From Psychrobacillus sp. FSL K6-2836 (GTDB lineage: Bacteria; Bacillota; Bacilli; Bacillales_A; Planococcaceae): a stretch of 64,000 bases of DNA. Both the position numbers and the translations under genes were made by a program. The stretch is from the NCBI RefSeq assembly GCF_038003085.1, contig NZ_JBBOOM010000001.1:3348001-3412000 (forward strand). Reading direction: 5' to 3'. Of the stretch, positions 2,796 through 62,136 are shown in pieces. Below the pieces are notes generated by a model. That model ran no database searches and was not told the DNA's origin. It was given only the letters and a program-made list of their open reading frames with translations. Within the stretch, counting starts at the first letter, position 1; each line of letters begins with the position of its first letter.

Positions 2796-4151
2796 TTATC
2801 TTTTATGAAATCCTTTTTTATAATATACAAACACTAATCCGATTATCCATATGGGTCCAACTATTAGCGCTATACGAGTATCGGGGAAATAAGCCATGAG
2901 GCCAAGTACTAATACTAAAAAAGCTAGTGCTAAATAGGATCCTACTGGATAGAACAAAGCTTTATAGGAAAGCCTTGATACTTCTCCTTTTGTTAGTGTT
3001 TTACGGAATTTTAATTGAGATAATAATATAATTCCCCATGTCCAAACGGCTCCGAATGTCGAAATACTTGTTACCCAGATGAATACTTTTTCAGGTACTA
3101 AGTAATTTAATACAACACCAACTAAAAGTAAAAAGGCAGAAAAAATAATTGCTTTGGAAGGTACTCCCGATCTGCTTATTCTAGCGAATGAGTTAGGAGC
3201 CTGTTTCTGCTGTGCCAGATTAAATAACATACGCCCTGTACTAAAAATACCACTATTACAACTAGATAATGCAGCTGTAAGGACAACAAAGTTAATAATA
3301 CCTGCAGCTGGACCAATCCCAATTTTCTCAAACATTAAAACGAATGGACTTCCATTAGCTCCAATCTCGTTCCATGGATAAATGGACATTATAACGAACA
3401 AAGCCCCAACATAGAACAGTAAAATACGCCAAAATACAGTATCTATCGCTCGTGGTATTACCGTTTTAGGATTTTTCGCTTCTCCTGCAGTTACTCCAAT
3501 CATCTCAACACCCAAATAAGCAAACATGACCATTTGTAGGGACATGAATATGCCAGTAACGCCATTTGGTGCAAATCCGCCGTTCGACCATAAATTACTT
3601 ATGCCGACTGCAATCCCATCATTGCCAAGACCAAAAAGAATAACACCTAGCCCTACAAAAATCATTGCTAAGATAGCAAGTATTTTAATAAGTGCAAACC
3701 AAAATTCAAACTCCCCATATGCTTTTACGGCTATTAAGTTAACGAGTGTCATGATAACTAATGCTGCTAATGCCCATATCCAAGGGGCTGTGTCCGGATA
3801 CCACATTTGCATGTATACACCTACAGCAGTAATCTCTGCCATACACGTAACTACCCATAAAAACCAATAATTCCATCCTGTTATGTATCCTGCAAGCGGA
3901 CCTAAGTAATCCTTTGCATACCGACTAAATGAACCCGAAACTGGATTATGTACCGCCATTTCACCAAGTGCTCGCATAATGATAAAAATGGCCATTCCTC
4001 CGACAATATAGGAAATCAGTATAGCTGGTCCCGCAAGTTGTATTGCGGTTGCTGACCCTAAAAATAGACCGACTCCGATTGCTGCTCCTAATGACATCAA
4101 GGTGATATGTCGCTGTTCTAAACCTCGCTGTAGTTGCTGATTTCCACCCAT
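2796..4151 (-). CDS. Amino acid permease (APC/AAT family)
   Basis: 451 aa with about 12 hydrophobic segments. The N-terminus carries the family signature (RHITLMSLGAAIGVGLFLGSA), with the GxGLF substrate-binding loop in the first helix, followed by ALGEMAVHNPVSGSFSRYA. It is a proton-coupled amino acid importer of the plasma membrane. The sequence resembles Bacillus YtnA/AlaP/proline permease relatives, but substrate cannot be decided by eye. Ribosome binding site AAGGAGTG lies upstream of the ATG. It is a single gene, convergent with the peptidase and divergent from the acetyltransferase. Confidence 0.92.
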   Translation of the reverse strand: MGGNQQLQRGLEQRHITLMSLGAAIGVGLFLGSATAIQLAGPAILISYIVGGMAIFIIMRALGEMAVHNPVSGSFSRYAKDYLGPLAGYITGWNYWFLWVVTCMAEITAVGVYMQMWYPDTAPWIWALAALVIMTLVNLIAVKAYGEFEFWFALIKILAILAMIFVGLGVILFGLGNDGIAVGISNLWSNGGFAPNGVTGIFMSLQMVMFAYLGVEMIGVTAGEAKNPKTVIPRAIDTVFWRILLFYVGALFVIMSIYPWNEIGANGSPFVLMFEKIGIGPAAGIINFVVLTAALSSCNSGIFSTGRMLFNLAQQKQAPNSFARISRSGVPSKAIIFSAFLLLVGVVLNYLVPEKVFIWVTSISTFGAVWTWGIILLSQLKFRKTLTKGEVSRLSYKALFYPVGSYLALAFLVLVLGLMAYFPDTRIALIVGPIWIIGLVFVYYKKGFHKR

Positions 4152-40355: not shown

Positions 40356-41294
40356 ATGGGAACGTTGAAAAATGGGCTGCTTGCTGGTCTTAAAACAACA
40401 TGGACATTAAGTAAAGTAATTTTCCCAATTACATTAATCGTAGTAATTTTGCAGCATACGCCTGTTTTGCCTTGGATTATTGACCTCATATCACCGTTTA
40501 TGGGGCTATTAGGTCTTCGCGGGGAGGCGGCAATTCCTTTAGTGTTGGGAAATGCATTAAATTTATATGCAGGGATAGCAGGAATACTATCTTTGGAATT
40601 GACTGTGAAGGAAGTCTTTATATTAGCGACGATGCTATCCTTTTCACATAATATTTTCATTGAAACTGGAGTGGCCCTTCGAGTTGGTGTGAAATTGTGG
40701 ATTGTATTGGTTGTTCGCTTTGGTTTGGCTATTCTGTCCGCGGTCGTTATTAACCTAGTGTGGCAAGGCGGCGGAGAGATAGCGAAATATGGTGCACTAC
40801 AAGTAAGTCAACAAGTCCCAGATGGATGGGGAGAAATTATATTGTTTGGCTTACAAAAGGCGACGTTTGGCGTTGGACAATTAGCGCTAATCGTCATACC
40901 ATTGATGGTTATTATCCAGTTTTTAAAGGATCGGAATTATTTACAAAAGTTTTCAGAAAAGCTAGCTCCCTTTACGAGAGTTATTGGAATACAACCAAAT
41001 GCTTCCCTAACTCTTGTGGCTGGGCTTGTGATTGGACTTGCATATGGAGCAGGGGTAATGATTCAAGCGGTGCAAGAGGATGGAGTAAGTAAAAAGGATG
41101 CGACGCTAGCCTTTATATTCTTAGTGGCATGTCATGCAGTAGTCGAAGATACATTAATCTTTATACCATTAGGAATCCCAATCTGGCCATTATTATTAAT
41201 CCGATTGCTAACTGCTTTCGTATTAACGATAGTAGTTGCTTATGTTTGGAGGAAAGCAGAGCAAAGTAAACATAAGGAAGTGGTAATCCCGTGA
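40356..41294 (+). CDS. yvoD: Nucleoside-recognition (Gate) domain membrane protein, YvoD
   Basis: 312 aa, about eight membrane helices in two related halves, each with a Gate-type helix (GNALNLYAGIAGILSL; LVAGLVIGLAYGAGVMIQAV). The family resembles SpmA/SpmB/FeoB gate domains; transported substrate is unknown. The order lgt-yvoD-ppaX is as in B. subtilis. Its stop overlaps the GTG start of ppaX by 4 nt. Confidence 0.88.
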   Translation: MGTLKNGLLAGLKTTWTLSKVIFPITLIVVILQHTPVLPWIIDLISPFMGLLGLRGEAAIPLVLGNALNLYAGIAGILSLELTVKEVFILATMLSFSHNIFIETGVALRVGVKLWIVLVVRFGLAILSAVVINLVWQGGGEIAKYGALQVSQQVPDGWGEIILFGLQKATFGVGQLALIVIPLMVIIQFLKDRNYLQKFSEKLAPFTRVIGIQPNASLTLVAGLVIGLAYGAGVMIQAVQEDGVSKKDATLAFIFLVACHAVVEDTLIFIPLGIPIWPLLLIRLLTAFVLTIVVAYVWRKAEQSKHKEVVIP

Positions 41295-41941
41295 AAAACT
41301 ATAAAGCATTACTCTTTGATCTAGATGGAACATTATTAGATACGAACGAACTAATTATTGAATCTTTTTTACATGTGTTAGGCGAAACATTTCCGGGGAA
41401 ATATAGTCGGGAGACTGTCTTACCGTTTTTAGGACCACCATTATTTGAAACATTTGATGCGATAGACCCAACTTTAACAGAGACTTTAATTGCTACCTAT
41501 CATAAATGGAATCTGGAACGACATGACCAAATGGTAGCTCCATTTGATGGAGTCGTAGAAACATTACGACAACTAAAAAAAGAAGGCTATAAACTGGCGA
41601 TTGTTTCTACTAAAAGGCGGGAAATGATCGATAGAGGTCTACAAATAATGGAATGTGAAACGTTATTTGATACAATTGTTGGTTTTGACGATGTTACATA
41701 TACAAAGCCTAATCCTGAGCCTATTCAAATAGCATTACAAAGAATTGGGGCTAATAAGGAAGAGGCGCTTATGATTGGCGACAATTTTCATGATATCGTA
41801 GGTGGGCAAAGAGCTGGAGTTGATACAGCTGCTGTAGCGTGGTCCATCAAAGGAGAAGCATTTTTAGCGACTTATAATCCTACTTATATGCTACATCAAA
41901 TGAGTGACTTACTTGATATAGCAAAAGAGCAGCGTGTATGA
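41291..41941 (+). CDS. ppaX: Pyrophosphatase PpaX (HAD family)
   Basis: 216 aa, GTG start in a GTGA overlap with yvoD. HAD motifs: DLDGTLLD (motif I, Asp10 and Asp12), Ser in IVSTKRR (motif II), Lys in YTKPNPEP and GDNFHDI (motifs III/IV). It hydrolyses pyrophosphate released by HprK when it dephosphorylates HPr(Ser-P), which explains its place in the hprK operon. Confidence 0.95.
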   Translation: MKNYKALLFDLDGTLLDTNELIIESFLHVLGETFPGKYSRETVLPFLGPPLFETFDAIDPTLTETLIATYHKWNLERHDQMVAPFDGVVETLRQLKKEGYKLAIVSTKRREMIDRGLQIMECETLFDTIVGFDDVTYTKPNPEPIQIALQRIGANKEEALMIGDNFHDIVGGQRAGVDTAAVAWSIKGEAFLATYNPTYMLHQMSDLLDIAKEQRV

Positions 41942-42447
41942 GGAGAACAGAACGATATCCTGTAAAAGGGGCAAACTCGCTTTGGCATGTGTATGATACT
42001 GTTCCATTTTGGAAAGTTATGAAGAACTTTATCTTTATTCAAGCCGCTAGATATTCCCCTTTTTTAAGCTGGAAGAACTTTTTCTATCGTGTCTTTCTGA
42101 AAATGGAAGTTGGAAAAGAAACGTCTTTTGCCTTAATGGTAATGGTTGATGTTATGTTCCCAGAGCGCATTAAAGTTGGCGATAATTCCATTATTGGATA
42201 CAACACGACGATTCTTGCGCATGAATATTTGATCGATGAATATAGAATTGGTGATGTGATTATTGGCAATCGAGTATTGATCGGAGCAAATACGACTATC
42301 TTGCCAGGTATTACGATTGGTGATGACGCCATTGTTTCTGCGGCAACACTCGTCAATGCAGACGTTCCCGAAGGATGCTTCGTTGGCGGAAACCCAATGC
42401 GCATTATTTATACGAAGGAACAAATGCTAGAACGAAATAAAAACTAA
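41938..42447 (+). CDS. yvoF: Acyltransferase with left-handed beta-helix, YvoF
   Basis: 169 aa, ATGA overlap with ppaX. Hexapeptide repeats run from about residue 75 (IKVGDNSIIGYNTTILAHEYL; IGNRVLIGANTTILPGITIGDDAIV), ending in the FVGGNPMRII element typical of LbH acetyltransferases. An N-terminal extension of about 65 residues precedes the helix. Substrate unknown. Confidence 0.92.
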   Translation: MRRTERYPVKGANSLWHVYDTVPFWKVMKNFIFIQAARYSPFLSWKNFFYRVFLKMEVGKETSFALMVMVDVMFPERIKVGDNSIIGYNTTILAHEYLIDEYRIGDVIIGNRVLIGANTTILPGITIGDDAIVSAATLVNADVPEGCFVGGNPMRIIYTKEQMLERNKN

Positions 42448-42450
42448 TGA

Positions 42451-42494
42451 AAAGCTATTCTACTTAGTGTTGAACTAAGAAGGATAGCTTTTTT
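42451..42494 (+). terminator. Terminator of the hprK operon
   Basis: AAAAGCTAT-CT-CTTAG pairs with CTAAG-AG-ATAGCTTTT, followed by TTTT. It begins 4 nt after the yvoF stop. Confidence 0.85.
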
Positions 42495-42548
42495 GATGAA
42501 TTAATGATTATAGAAATCGTCCAACTGAAACGCGATCAATAGTCGACC

Positions 42549-42801
42549 TTGCGATAGCACAATTCATATTGCGATTAGTAAAGCTGAACTTGTGATTTGG
42601 GGCGACTAACTTGCGATTCGTAAAAATTCGGTAGTGATCTTGCGATTTACACGATTTATCTTGCATTTGAGGCATCGACCTTGCGATTCGGGGAGACTAT
42701 CTTGCGATTCAGCAAATCCCAGTAGTGACCTTGCGATTTACACGATTTATATTGCGATTAGTGAAGTTGACCTTGCGATTTGGGGCGACTAACTTGCGAT
42801 T
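42549..42801 (+). repeat. TTGCGATT array with 21-bp spacing and 91-bp higher-order period
   Basis: Twelve copies of TTGCGATT or close variants start at 42549, 42569, 42590, 42611, 42640, 42661, 42681, 42702, 42731, 42752, 42773 and 42794. Steps are 20-21 bp within groups of four and 29 bp between groups, giving three 91-bp super-units. Linkers match between super-units (for example TTTACACGATTTAT after 42640 and 42731). It is noncoding and sits between yvoF and the his promoter. Confidence 0.92.
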
Positions 42802-42832
42802 CGGAAAAATCTTATAGGAACTGAAAGATAAG

Positions 42833-42861
42833 TTGACGAAAAGGATAAAATAGTATAAAAT
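42833..42861 (+). promoter_or_regulatory. Sigma-A promoter of the histidine operon
   Basis: TTGACG (42833-42838), 17-bp spacer, TAAAAT (42856-42861). The leader of about 50 nt is too short for a T-box. Confidence 0.75.
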
Positions 42862-42919
42862 TCTATTAATTCATCTTATTAGTTCTCTAGTGTGTTAAAG
42901 TAATGTGAGGGGTGTTCAA

Positions 42920-44098
42920 ATGAGCAAAATTCAGATGTTCGAAAAGCCTCTAGGAATGAGAGACTCTTTTCCAGAAGTAAACGAACAAAAAGAATATATA
43001 CGATCGACAGCAAGAGACTTTATACGAAGAAAAGGGTACGACTTTATAAAAACACCTTCCGTGGAGTATTTTGAAACAATCGGAAAGGCTTCTGCTATTG
43101 ATGAGTCTTCGTTGTTTAAACTAGTAGACAATCAAGGTGAAATGCTTGTTTTACGTCCTGATATGACGACACCGATTGCTAGAATAGCAGCTTCCAAGCT
43201 ATTAAAGGAAAAAAATCCATTACGTTTAGCGTACTATGCAGATGTATTTCGTGCACAACAGCGAGAGGGAGGAAGACCAGCAGAGTTTGAGCAGCTAGGA
43301 CTGGAACTTGTTGGAGATTTTAGTCCATATGCAGACAGTGAAATAATCTATACTGCGATAGAACTACTGAAGGCTTTAGGGGTAGAAAACTTCCGAATTA
43401 CTATAGGACATGCCGAAATCTTAACTGCTTTTTTAGGAAACTACACAAATAGCACAGATCAAGTTGAAATGCTGAGACAACTATTAGTAGAGAAAAATTT
43501 AGTAGGTTTCTCACAAAAGTTAGAAAGCATGAATTTACTCAAAGAACAAAAAGAAAATCTTATGAAAATAATAGATTATACAATAGACTCCAATGTATTT
43601 ACGGATTTCCGTCAGTTTCTTAATGACGATCAGCAATATTTGATCGATCAGGTTGAGGAACTTCAAGAATTACTAGAATTCCAATTGAATGACTTTTCAA
43701 TTGTATCGTTTGATTTTTCTTTAGCGAGTCATATGAGCTATTACACAGGCATGCTATTTGAAATTCACGCCGCTGGAAGTGGTTTCTCCATTGGAAATGG
43801 TGGCCGATATGATGAGTTGTTCAAACAGTTCGATGAAAAGGTTGGAGCTACAGGATTTGGTATCCGTGTAGATCGCCTGCTGGAGGTTTTACCGAAGCGA
43901 ATAATGAAAGAGAAGCATACACTTCTTTTATTTGATAAAGGGTCTTTTTCTAAAGCAAATGTATTAGCGGAAGCTAGAAGAAATGCATCCGAATATGTGA
44001 CGCTACAATACGCGGAGAGTGTAAATGATATTGAAGCGTTTAAACAAATTTTCGATGAAGTGATTATCGTGTCCGAAGGTGGTTTTTTCCGTGAATGA
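42920..44098 (+). CDS. hisZ: ATP phosphoribosyltransferase regulatory subunit HisZ
   Basis: 392 aa from the ATG at 42920 (GAGGGGTG 6 nt upstream). A class II tRNA-synthetase-like fold without the anticodon-binding domain: motif 2 [20 protein letters not shown] and the histidine loop [11 protein letters not shown] and [10 protein letters not shown]. It forms the complex with short HisG and confers histidine feedback. First gene of the his operon. Confidence 0.95.
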
Positions 44099-60428: not shown

Positions 60429-60565
60429 CTTCTGACCTCCCCTTATTGCAATAGACGAACGGATAAATAAAAAGTATCGCTTTTATTTTACCTTATGAGG
60501 GAATAACAATTTCAAAAAGACTATAATAAACATAAATCAAATGAGTTTTGGAAGGATGGTATAAA

Positions 60566-60796
60566 ATGATTGTCCATTTTTACACAAGGCCAGGCTGTCA
60601 TTTATGTGATGATGCAAGGCTTATGTTGAAGCTTGTAAGAGAAGATGTCGTGTTTGACATAAATGAAGTAAATATCGAAGAAGATGATGCACTACATGAA
60701 AAATATATGCTGATGATTCCTGTCATCGTATTGGAAGATGAAATTATTCAATATGGGCAAGTAGATTACGCGACTATTTTGGAAGCATTACTTTGA
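60566..60796 (+). CDS. Glutaredoxin-family protein
   Basis: 76 aa from the ATG at 60566 (GGAAGGATGG upstream). The active site is Cys11-His-Leu-Cys14 in TRPGCHLCDDARLML, with the cis-Pro in IPVIVLEDE. It is a small thiol-disulfide protein (DUF836-like). A gene of this kind often sits just before cggR in Bacillales. Confidence 0.88.
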   Translation: MIVHFYTRPGCHLCDDARLMLKLVREDVVFDINEVNIEEDDALHEKYMLMIPVIVLEDEIIQYGQVDYATILEALL

Positions 60797-60809: not shown

Positions 60810-60922
60810 AATCGCAAGTTAATGGGGCCAAATCGCAAGATCCACGTCCCAAACCGCAATATAGGATCAGATAATCGCAAGATCCAATCCCCAAACCGCA
60901 ATATAGATAGGTAGAATCGCAA
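60810..60922 (+). repeat. AATCGCAA array, six units at exactly 21 bp
   Basis: AATCGCAA or AACCGCAA starts at 60810, 60831, 60852, 60873, 60894 and 60915, every step exactly 21 bp. Linkers alternate between GATCCA-CCCCA and TATAG types. This is the reverse complement of the motif in the 42.5-kb array. Noncoding, between the glutaredoxin gene and the cggR promoter. Confidence 0.93.
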
Positions 60923-61098: not shown

Positions 61099-62136
61099 AT
61101 GGATTCGTTACTACAGGCTCAGTTAAAGCTAATGCCTGAGATGAACATCTTGTTACAAAAAAGGTATCGAATACTCCAAACGATTCAATTGTCTCCAGGG
61201 TACGGCCGAAGAGTGATCGGTGACCTTTTAGGATTGTCGGAAAGAGAAACTAGAAAAGAATTAGACTTTTTGCGCAATCAGGGATTTATAGAAATATCGA
61301 GAGATGGAGCTAGTATAACTTCTAGTGGAAATGATTTATTGATAGAGCTTAAAGAAGTTGTACGAGAATGGTCTGGTAGATTGCAGCTCGAACAATCACT
61401 TGTAAGTTATTTAAATATAAAAGAAGTGATAATTGTACCGGGAGATGTAGATACTAATACGAATACTGCAATGCTTCAGTCACAAGAAGCAGCAAAATAT
61501 TTGGAAAGTATTTTATCGGATGAGTCCATCATAGCTGTAACTGGCGGAACAACGATTGCTTCCATTTCGAATTATGTTCATCAAACTGACAAGTGGAAGC
61601 GACTATTATTTATAGCTGCAAGAGGTGGAGTTGGTAAGGATGTTCGGCTTCAAGCCAATACAATAGCCTCTCTATTTGCCAATAAAATGAATGGTTCTTA
61701 TCGAACGTTATACATGCCGGATAGCCTGAGTGAGGAAGCTTACTCTACGATGAAAAATGAACCATTTATAAAAGAAATGATGGATTTATACGAACGAACT
61801 AATATCATCATTCATGGTATTGGGGATGCACTTGAAATGGCTCGCCGTAGAAATTCAAGTTTAGAAGAAATGCAACGCTTGAAGGAAATCGGTGCAGTTA
61901 GTGAAGCCTTTGGGTATTACTTTAATAACCAAGGGGAAGCAGTACACAGAATTCGCACAATTGGAGTTCAACTAAAACAATTAGGAAATATGGAGCATCT
62001 TCTAGCAGTAGCTGGAGGCACTAAAAAAGCAAATGCTCTATTATCATATTTTAAACAAGCACCAGCTCAAACGGTTTTAGTTACCGATGAAGGTGCAGCA
62101 CAAGAAATGATTCAAATAATTGAACAAAACAACTAG
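61099..62136 (+). CDS. cggR: Central glycolytic genes regulator CggR (SorC family)
   Basis: 345 aa. The N-terminal winged HTH (about residues 20-80; QKRYRILQTIQLSPGYGRRVIGDLLGLSERETRKELD) is followed by a sugar-phosphate-binding SorC domain (TGGTTIASIS, AARGGVGKDV, TDEGAA). It represses the gapA operon unless bound by fructose-1,6-bisphosphate. It precedes gapA by 12 nt. Confidence 0.96.
   Translation: MDSLLQAQLKLMPEMNILLQKRYRILQTIQLSPGYGRRVIGDLLGLSERETRKELDFLRNQGFIEISRDGASITSSGNDLLIELKEVVREWSGRLQLEQSLVSYLNIKEVIIVPGDVDTNTNTAMLQSQEAAKYLESILSDESIIAVTGGTTIASISNYVHQTDKWKRLLFIAARGGVGKDVRLQANTIASLFANKMNGSYRTLYMPDSLSEEAYSTMKNEPFIKEMMDLYERTNIIIHGIGDALEMARRRNSSLEEMQRLKEIGAVSEAFGYYFNNQGEAVHRIRTIGVQLKQLGNMEHLLAVAGGTKKANALLSYFKQAPAQTVLVTDEGAAQEMIQIIEQNN

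Follow-up and report, generated by a model that had tools for sequence, protein, structure and literature searches.

An array of TTGCG cores at 21-bp steps upstream of hisZ belongs to a dispersed, mainly intergenic element of Psychrobacillus

The array upstream of hisZ in the 64-kb window, as we call the whole stretch of DNA that was analyzed, is one copy of a dispersed noncoding element. The element is mainly intergenic and consists of TTGCG cores that follow each other in one orientation at a distance of two helical turns (21 bp). Spacing, core, and dispersal were observed across genomes, and at fixed sites both linkers and copy number were seen to turn over. The first-pass annotation had allowed for a local accident, with no array in relatives and no other copy in the genome. 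The hisZ array is not such an accident: arrays were present in all 19 Psychrobacillus genomes, and 17 sites were studied in the genome that contains the window (4.54 Mb; labeled G000, with other G numbers denoting other genomes). The explanation that we favor, with a probability of about one half, is that the cores are phased sites for a candidate DNA-wrapping or polymerizing protein.

Arrays in the window

The array proposed in the first-pass annotation is real, comprising 12 TTGCGATT-type cores at 42549 to 42801, all in a single orientation (+) and 9 of them exact. Throughout the window, TTGCGATT was observed 15 times, where 3.5 occurrences were expected; none of 100 shuffles reached this count. 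Tandem Repeats Finder reported a period of 91 bp (2.9 copies, score of 312, 42540 to 42809), which agrees with the three 91-bp super-units that had been described. Their supposedly uniform steps of 21, 21, 21, and 29 bp were not recovered, however, as two steps of 20 bp are present (Table 1). The super-unit length of 91 bp results from the single 20-bp step that super-units 1 and 2 each contain. The core at 42661, TTGCATTT, has lost one base, and the second 20-bp step comes directly after it. Because the 20-bp steps sit at different places, ungapped identity was low between blocks 1 and 3 (32/91) and blocks 2 and 3 (44/91); blocks 1 and 2 shared 54 of 91 positions. Linkers are 12 to 13 bp long, or 21 bp in the joints.

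Table 1. Features of the hisZ array, the second array, and their surroundings in the window
Feature	Coordinates	Strand	Details
Hexapeptide-repeat acyltransferase gene	41938..42447	+	Last of the gene run starting with hprK and lgt
Hairpin	42450..42492	+	19-nt arms, 89% complementary (computed); T-run at end (from the sequence)
Cores (start positions)	42549, 42569, 42590, 42611, 42640, 42661, 42681, 42702, 42731, 42752, 42773, 42794	+	
Super-unit 1	42549..42639	+	Cores at 42549 (TTGCGATA), 42569, 42590 (TTGTGATT), and 42611; steps 20, 21, 21, joint 29
29-bp joint unit	42611..42639	+	A-tract; linker CGTAAAAATTCGGTAGTGATC
Super-unit 2	42640..42730	+	Cores at 42640, 42661 (TTGCATTT), 42681, and 42702; steps 21, 20, 21, joint 29
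29-bp joint unit	42702..42730	+	Linker CAGCAAATCCCAGTAGTGACC
Super-unit 3	42731..42801	+	Cores at 42731, 42752, 42773, and 42794; steps 21, 21, 21
Promoter-like TTGACG ... TATAAA	42833..42859	+	Upstream of hisZ; putative, recognized by eye
hisZ	42905..44098	+	HisZ-like, histidyl-tRNA synthetase paralogue
Glutaredoxin-like gene	60548..60796		Neighbor of second array
Second array	60810..60922	-	6 cores TTGCGATT/TTGCGGTT, all steps 21; upstream of cggR
cggR	61099..62136		Neighbor of second array

Pfam searches with six window genes identified hprK, lgt, HisZ, and CggR. The hisZ array was correctly placed by the earlier annotation between the terminator-like hairpin of the hprK run, which is likely to be the terminator of the upstream operon, and the promoter-like sequence. 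Text similar to the latter was seen by eye in the five related genomes compared at hisZ. Transposons and MITEs are bounded by terminal inverted repeats and target duplications. A perfect 11-nt inverted repeat (42495 to 42505 and 42865 to 42875) surrounds the array, but by eye its left arm is not retained in G007. The second array is indeed oriented oppositely, with its 6 cores on the other strand and all steps at 21 bp. The claim that the two arrays share linker text comes down to weak similarity, given that the best pair matched at 17 of 26 and the best triple at 22 of 39 positions, compared with null 95% values of 18 and 24.

Dispersal, spacing, and distribution

Exact TTGCGATT pairs at any distance of 10 to 40 bp numbered 43 in the window's own genome, with 38 at 21 bp, 4 at 29 bp, and 1 at 39 bp; the backward control for these pairs gave 0. 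TTGCG triples with two free gaps of 5 to 35 bp occurred 166 times in this genome versus 4 times in the backward control, and among approximately 100 triples listed, all but five were located at array sites. The 17 sites studied do not include L211, which was left out as a chance pair within an open frame. Just two TTGCGATT-type cores each were found at L197 and L206, and some sites harbored other 21-bp cores, namely, GTTGCGNNAAC, ACTTGCGNT, and ATTCTANCGATT. At L198 (about 3250 to 4150; about 977.3 to 978.3 kb of the genome), the GTTGCGNNAAC cores form 102-bp super-units with steps of 21, 21, 21, 21, and 18 bp, adjacent to three TTGCGATT units. Ureibacillus acetophenoni (L067, L078, L114, and L155) has this step pattern with a different core. 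Two more arrays of GTTGCG type (C1 990859 to 991329 and 1602347 to 1602721) each lie less than 1 kb from a TTGCGATT array. The genome also contains a separate dispersed repeat, TTGCGAAATGTTTYTTTATTTTGCGACRAGCTTTGCG, in four near-identical copies (C1 166495, 705557, 2337857, and 2675839).

Around the arrays of Psychrobacillus, 418 of 559 steps measured 21 bp, a share that is inflated because many loci were found via 21-bp patterns, the informative feature being the scarcity of neighboring values. The remainder included 42 bp in 32 cases (one core lost), 18 bp in 24, 29 bp in 20, and, more rarely, 20 bp in 10, 28 bp in 4, 22 bp in 3, and 40 bp in 3, with none at 19, 23 to 27, 30 to 32, or 34 to 37 bp. 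In Ureibacillus (206 steps), 21 bp accounted for 149, 18 bp for 34, and 19 and 22 bp for 2 each; 82 of 90 steps in other genera were 21 bp. Steps of 20 and 22 bp combined amounted to 13 in Psychrobacillus, 3 in Ureibacillus, and 2 in the other genera.

Phased blocks were connected by joints of 18 bp in 13 sequences at 9 loci (in Ureibacillus, 20 at 5), of 29 bp in 13 sequences at 7 loci, and of 40 bp in 2 at 2, where locus counts are inflated by loci fetched twice and joints are partly copies of each other. Joints of 39, 42, 50, 60, and 61 bp equal sums of 18, 29, or 40 with 21. Others were 20 bp in 7 sequences and 17, 22, 38, 56, 59, and 62 bp in 1 to 4 sequences each. The 18-bp joint was seen with differing cores, the 29- and 40-bp joints chiefly with TTGCGATT. 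The three main joints are 11 bp apart, or one helical turn, and we infer from this ladder a rule on helix rotation.

In the TTGCGATT units of G000 (53 linkers), conservation starts four bases ahead of the core and ends one base behind it, and the middle eight linker positions contained 0.01 to 0.26 bit. The linker center (positions 10 to 16) in Psychrobacillus showed a GC content of 53 to 55%, compared with 35% in nearby intergenic DNA, a reference taken from Psychrobacillus alone. Linker middles were at 51 to 56% GC in the four larger groups, compared with 38% in a mixed group with only 16 units. Of the four larger groups, Ureibacillus showed partial conservation of single bases in the center, and the other three showed hardly any. 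Four of five groups had their largest GC harmonic at 10.5 bp; column permutations gave values of 0.27, 0.17, 0.04, 0.03, and 0.08, however, and the wave is therefore just a hint of wrapping.

Ten of the 17 array sites, compared with 12 of 72 background gaps, were located between convergent genes (P = 0.0001); array gaps were classed by hand (open frames of at least 80 amino acids) and background gaps by script (at least 100 amino acids), and the count for L200 depends on a doubtful left open frame. At 4 of the 17 sites (L197, L200, L201, and L206), an unannotated open frame of at least 80 amino acids overlaps the array. Read by eye, the neighbors of these sites were metabolic, transport, tRNA-synthetase, and regulator genes, with no common function or pathway among the genes flanking the 17 sites; the strands of the sites appear mixed. 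Comparing L199 with L201, one linker matched at 12 of 13 positions and a pair at 19 of 26 (null 95% of 11 and 18), and the best triple, 24, equaled its null 95%. By eye, one linker is identical between contigs C24 and C78 of G006, of which C24 could be an assembly fragment. At L207, upstream of a proS-like gene, the text GGACGTC...CGTGGTACCACC lies between array and gene and resembles a T-box leader.

Of 261 genomes of the order, 61, from 10 of 19 genera, contained four TTGCG cores in exact 21-bp phase. Such runs were present in 19 of 19 Psychrobacillus genomes and 42 of the other 242, leaving 200 with none. G244, G246, and G259 each had more than 100 four-unit matches, and genus g14 had none in its 32 genomes. 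The backward control matched in 17 genomes (hand count), none of them Psychrobacillus, and some of the 42 represent plain tandem repeats with near-identical units (e.g., L330 and L348). TTGCGRTT three times in phase, with up to two mismatches, was detected in 16 of 19 Psychrobacillus genomes, 0 of 18 genomes from other genera of the family, and 0 of 24 genomes of the class. In a class-wide draw, 10 of 39 genomes from the family matched. Outside the family, 5 of 359 did so, the matches listed for them being heptamer runs or near-identical tandem copies.

Among at least 119 stretches listed in the wider scan, arrays of at least four TTGCG cores with diverged linkers occurred in Ureibacillus, Fictibacillus, and Planococcus beigongshangi. 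Gottfriedia and Bacillus sp. B1-b2 had three cores and did not reach four, and many other matches were plain tandem repeats of unrelated bacteria. In the matches listed, the text after TTGCG varied by species, with ATT in G000, CAAAC in part of G006, AATAAA in G002, and TTAT in G010; it was GGGATA, GGTTAAA, or GGAAT in genus g7 and ACAAT in g11. Several extended-core types occur side by side within single genomes. Three 21-bp arrays with the core TTRGCGYTACTC (L185, L186, and L191) were found through the backward control pattern in G022, which belongs to a different genus of the family.

Turnover at shared sites

Five of 19 congeners had phased TTGCGATT-type cores (up to one mismatch) at hisZ, and no array of this type was present in the other 14. 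The counts were 11 in G000 (12 including a degenerate core), 4 in G007, and 31 in G008, with 5 and 2 in the remaining two. By eye, G007, G000, and G008 follow the same super-unit scheme, which supports the duplication of blocks suggested in the first-pass annotation; the one super-unit of G007 has linkers like those of super-unit 3 in G000. In G014, the site holds a four-copy 21-bp array with another core, AAAATTCCAACTA (L217), which occurs as a single copy at hisZ in G006 and G004 (L216 and L218). Relative to the aligned hisZ start, the 5 cores of G009 extend from -303 to -219 and the array of G000 extends from -356 to -111. GC-rich, repeat-like intergenic stretches containing GAAGACCCCGCAGGAACG / CAGGGTCTTCAGC text were noticed at L217, upstream of hisZ in G014, and at L197 in the window's own genome; we take them to resemble dispersed hairpin repeats of Bacillales.

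The cggR site carries TTGCGATT-type phased cores in 13 of 19 congeners, invariably on the minus strand. At L203, which adjoins a conserved hairpin, G000 has 3 units, G008 and G006 have 5 each, and G004 has 6, with largely different linkers; G007 and G014 have one core-like word there. The array at L205 is present in G000, G008, and G006 and absent from G007. Strand was constant at shared sites with one exception, L197 in G007. Across species, a shared site thus retains TTGCG, its 21-bp steps, and, with rare exceptions, its strand; what varies is the number of copies, the linkers, and in some cases the extended core.

Between G000 and G007, differences at seven sites amounted to 11/208 in cores (0.05), 233/2,317 in flanks (0.10), and 68/242 in linkers (0.28), where core conservation is overstated because cores were recognized by matching and linker divergence may take in nonequivalent units. 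Third codon positions of the same pair differed at 0.152 in hisZ and 0.099 in cggR. The order core < flank < linker applied to 15 of 15 genome pairs in this comparison, which left out intergenic stretches of at least 1,000 bp and the hisZ codons versus G004 (contig end). Compared with G000, third positions of hisZ and cggR differed at 0.22 and 0.18 in G006 (linkers, 0.39) and at 0.28 and 0.21 in G014 (linkers, 0.42). In G008, third positions differed at 0.25 in hisZ and 0.17 in cggR and linkers at 0.24, so the excess of linker change over synonymous change is not general. In a simple gapped pairwise alignment, gap lengths were mostly not multiples of 21 and gave no support for unit-sized indels; these lengths were not used further because the alignment splits gaps inside repeats.

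Candidate explanations and known repeat systems

If the cores are phased protein sites, every core would lie on the same face of the helix, occupied by many protein copies side by side or by one protein that wraps the DNA. Joints of 18, 29, or 40 bp would give a near-constant rotational offset between blocks, and blocks would grow and shrink through slippage or unequal recombination. With nothing but the core and the length being recognized, linkers would be free to drift. That so many sites are convergent suggests a role in local DNA architecture, such as wrapping DNA, handling supercoils, or keeping transcription units apart, more than in the control of single genes. The first-pass annotation had offered a binding platform or a selfish repeat. 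The platform, to be bound by a putative protein, fits the exact 21-bp spacing, the 11-bp joint ladder, and the free linkers. Our confidence in protein sites is slightly lowered because linkers did not change faster than third positions in every pair. Young arrays, or arrays continually remade by duplication, could likewise keep an exact spacing. Only tentatively do we go further, to a dedicated family system. Here, one or a few putative proteins would read TTGCG at two-turn phase and polymerize on or wrap DNA at some 20 sites per genome. Their extended specificity (TTGCGATT, TTGCGCAAAC, TTGCGAATAAA, TTGCGTTAT, TTGCGGGATA, TTGCGGTTAAA, and others) would shift together with the arrays between sister species at constant 21-bp geometry. 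Given several core types per genome, one protein may not read all of them. If a protein does read the arrays, they would amount to a chromosome-wide, helix-phased binding system of changing specificity in a common bacterial family; if none does, a repeat that keeps its geometry for a mutational reason would also be unusual. With fixed spacing and drifting linkers, the arrays allow constraint on geometry to be measured apart from constraint on sequence.

The main rival to protein sites is a selfish or neutral tandem repeat, unread by any host protein, that changes by slippage and unequal recombination and is occasionally copied to new sites; convergent gaps would tolerate it because nothing else is there. 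Such a repeat would account for the wide range of 0, 4, 11, and 31 phased cores at hisZ, for presence or absence of the array at L205 among close relatives, and for location where insertions are best tolerated. This half of the earlier reading also gains from the two G000 sites L199 and L201, whose single and paired linkers match slightly above chance, and from the identical linker of C24 and C78 in G006. What a selfish repeat does not readily explain is a fixed length and TTGCG despite unrecognizable linkers, joints that are 11 bp apart, and a 21-bp TTGCG scheme with differing extended cores in several genera; we regard it as rather unlikely. The convergent location and the alternation of GC and AT within the 21-bp unit in several groups would also suit sites at which a general enzyme, for instance DNA gyrase, prefers to wrap DNA and clears supercoils between convergent genes, as has been proposed for enterobacterial BIMEs. 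The 10.5-bp wave is statistically weak, however, the extended core varies among congeners, which is unexpected for a conserved enzyme, and presence within the family is patchy, all of which makes a gyrase site improbable.

Regulation of the adjoining operon, such as his or the gapA operon, by an array of operators is very unlikely. The hisZ array does end just upstream of the promoter-like sequence in G000, G007, and G008, but 10 of 17 sites are convergent and have no promoter side, the distance to hisZ is not fixed (G009 versus G000), the flanking genes share no pathway by eye, and 14 of 19 congeners are without a TTGCGATT-type array at hisZ. Least probable, to the point of being negligible, is a protein-coding heptad repeat or a structured RNA. 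Both 21 and 18 are divisible by 3, some frame was open across 29 of 37 Psychrobacillus arrays versus 17.3 with shuffled linkers, two open frames cross the second array of the window, and a 259-amino-acid open frame covers that of L198. Non-ATT units of Psychrobacillus were short of stops in three phases (z of -4.5, -2.7, and -2.1, values inflated because units are related), but in two other groups, stops were in excess in the phase with -4.5 (+3.1 and +4.0). The hisZ array has 2 to 10 stops in each of six frames, stops were not clearly depleted in TTGCGATT units when columns were kept (largest deviation, z of -2.0), the variable columns of the L198 super-unit had no codon-position bias (12, 7, and 10 of 34), and steps of 29, 20, and 40 bp break the frame. 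The excess of open frames in Psychrobacillus perhaps derives from position-specific base preferences; short arrays (4 to 6 units) of other genera had an open frame in 25 of 25 cases versus 23.1 expected. An RNA element was rejected, as folding was not better than that of shuffles on the two strands (z of +0.45 and +2.01), and no Rfam match was obtained for window positions 41000 to 44000 at E values up to 1.

CRISPR arrays combine a 23- to 47-bp repeat with unique spacers and cas genes, whereas here the core has 8 bp and super-units have linkers in common. Iterons and plasmid centromeres consist of direct repeats, short and spaced by about two turns of the helix, along which a protein lines up. 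The arrays resemble them in having direct repeats at about this spacing but are dispersed over the chromosome, with no replication or partition gene recognized by eye beside the G000 sites and no match to plasmid records. REP/BIME elements are short, intergenic, dispersed repeats, often at the 3' ends of genes, and are palindromic and linked to RAYT transposases. The arrays are likewise short, intergenic, and dispersed, but no palindrome was found in them, the sole close inverted repeat reported being the upstream terminator-like hairpin, and the presence of Y1_Tnp across genomes does not follow that of arrays. We rejected a REP/RAYT origin because PF01797 was found in 43 of 61 genomes with arrays versus 131 of 200 others (hand count, 261 genomes), without association. 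Array-rich G002 had no match to PF01797, and G246 was not among the matches listed.

The nearest known kind is the STAR elements of Staphylococcus, whose definition does not cover the present arrays. As described in the available portion of the source (PMC3532100), STAR elements are interspersed intergenic direct repeats with a conserved 14-bp core, T(G/A/T)TGTTG(G/T)GGCCC(C/A), and variable, locus-specific spacers of at least 40 bp, and their sites expand and contract. To the extent of that text, intergenic dispersal, a conserved core, variable spacers, and copy number that varies at fixed loci are common to both (PMC3532100). The portion available also reports that two of three sequenced STAR loci are upstream of gapR (cggR) and of hprK (PMC3532100); of the window arrays, one precedes cggR and the other follows the hprK gene run, an apparent parallel. 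The differences are the core TTGCG(ATT), the exact 21-bp phase, linkers of 12 to 13 bp (21 bp in joints) in place of spacers of at least 40 bp, and sites shared across species, whereas the same portion states that no STAR site is common to different staphylococcal species (PMC3532100). The STAR core TNTGTTGNGGCCC, with up to two mismatches, occurred 8 times in the window versus 7.8 expected, with none inside the two arrays. Whether or not a protein reads the arrays, the outcome bears on STAR elements, for which that text gives the function as not known (PMC3532100). No description of TTGCG arrays at 21 bp was found in the literature searched, a body outside which most subscription journals fall.

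Plasmid and phage records gave no match to the arrays, although the viral arrays described next make a phage source conceivable. In viral contigs, two pattern scans returned 5 stretches and at least 120 stretches (at least 117 loci), respectively. Twelve viral loci had a stop-free run of less than 300 over the array, and among them the units of L357, L361, L396, and L413 differ on average at 7 or more of 21 positions. These four viral 21-bp TTGCG arrays consist of four to five units, and L357 and L361 are the same text.
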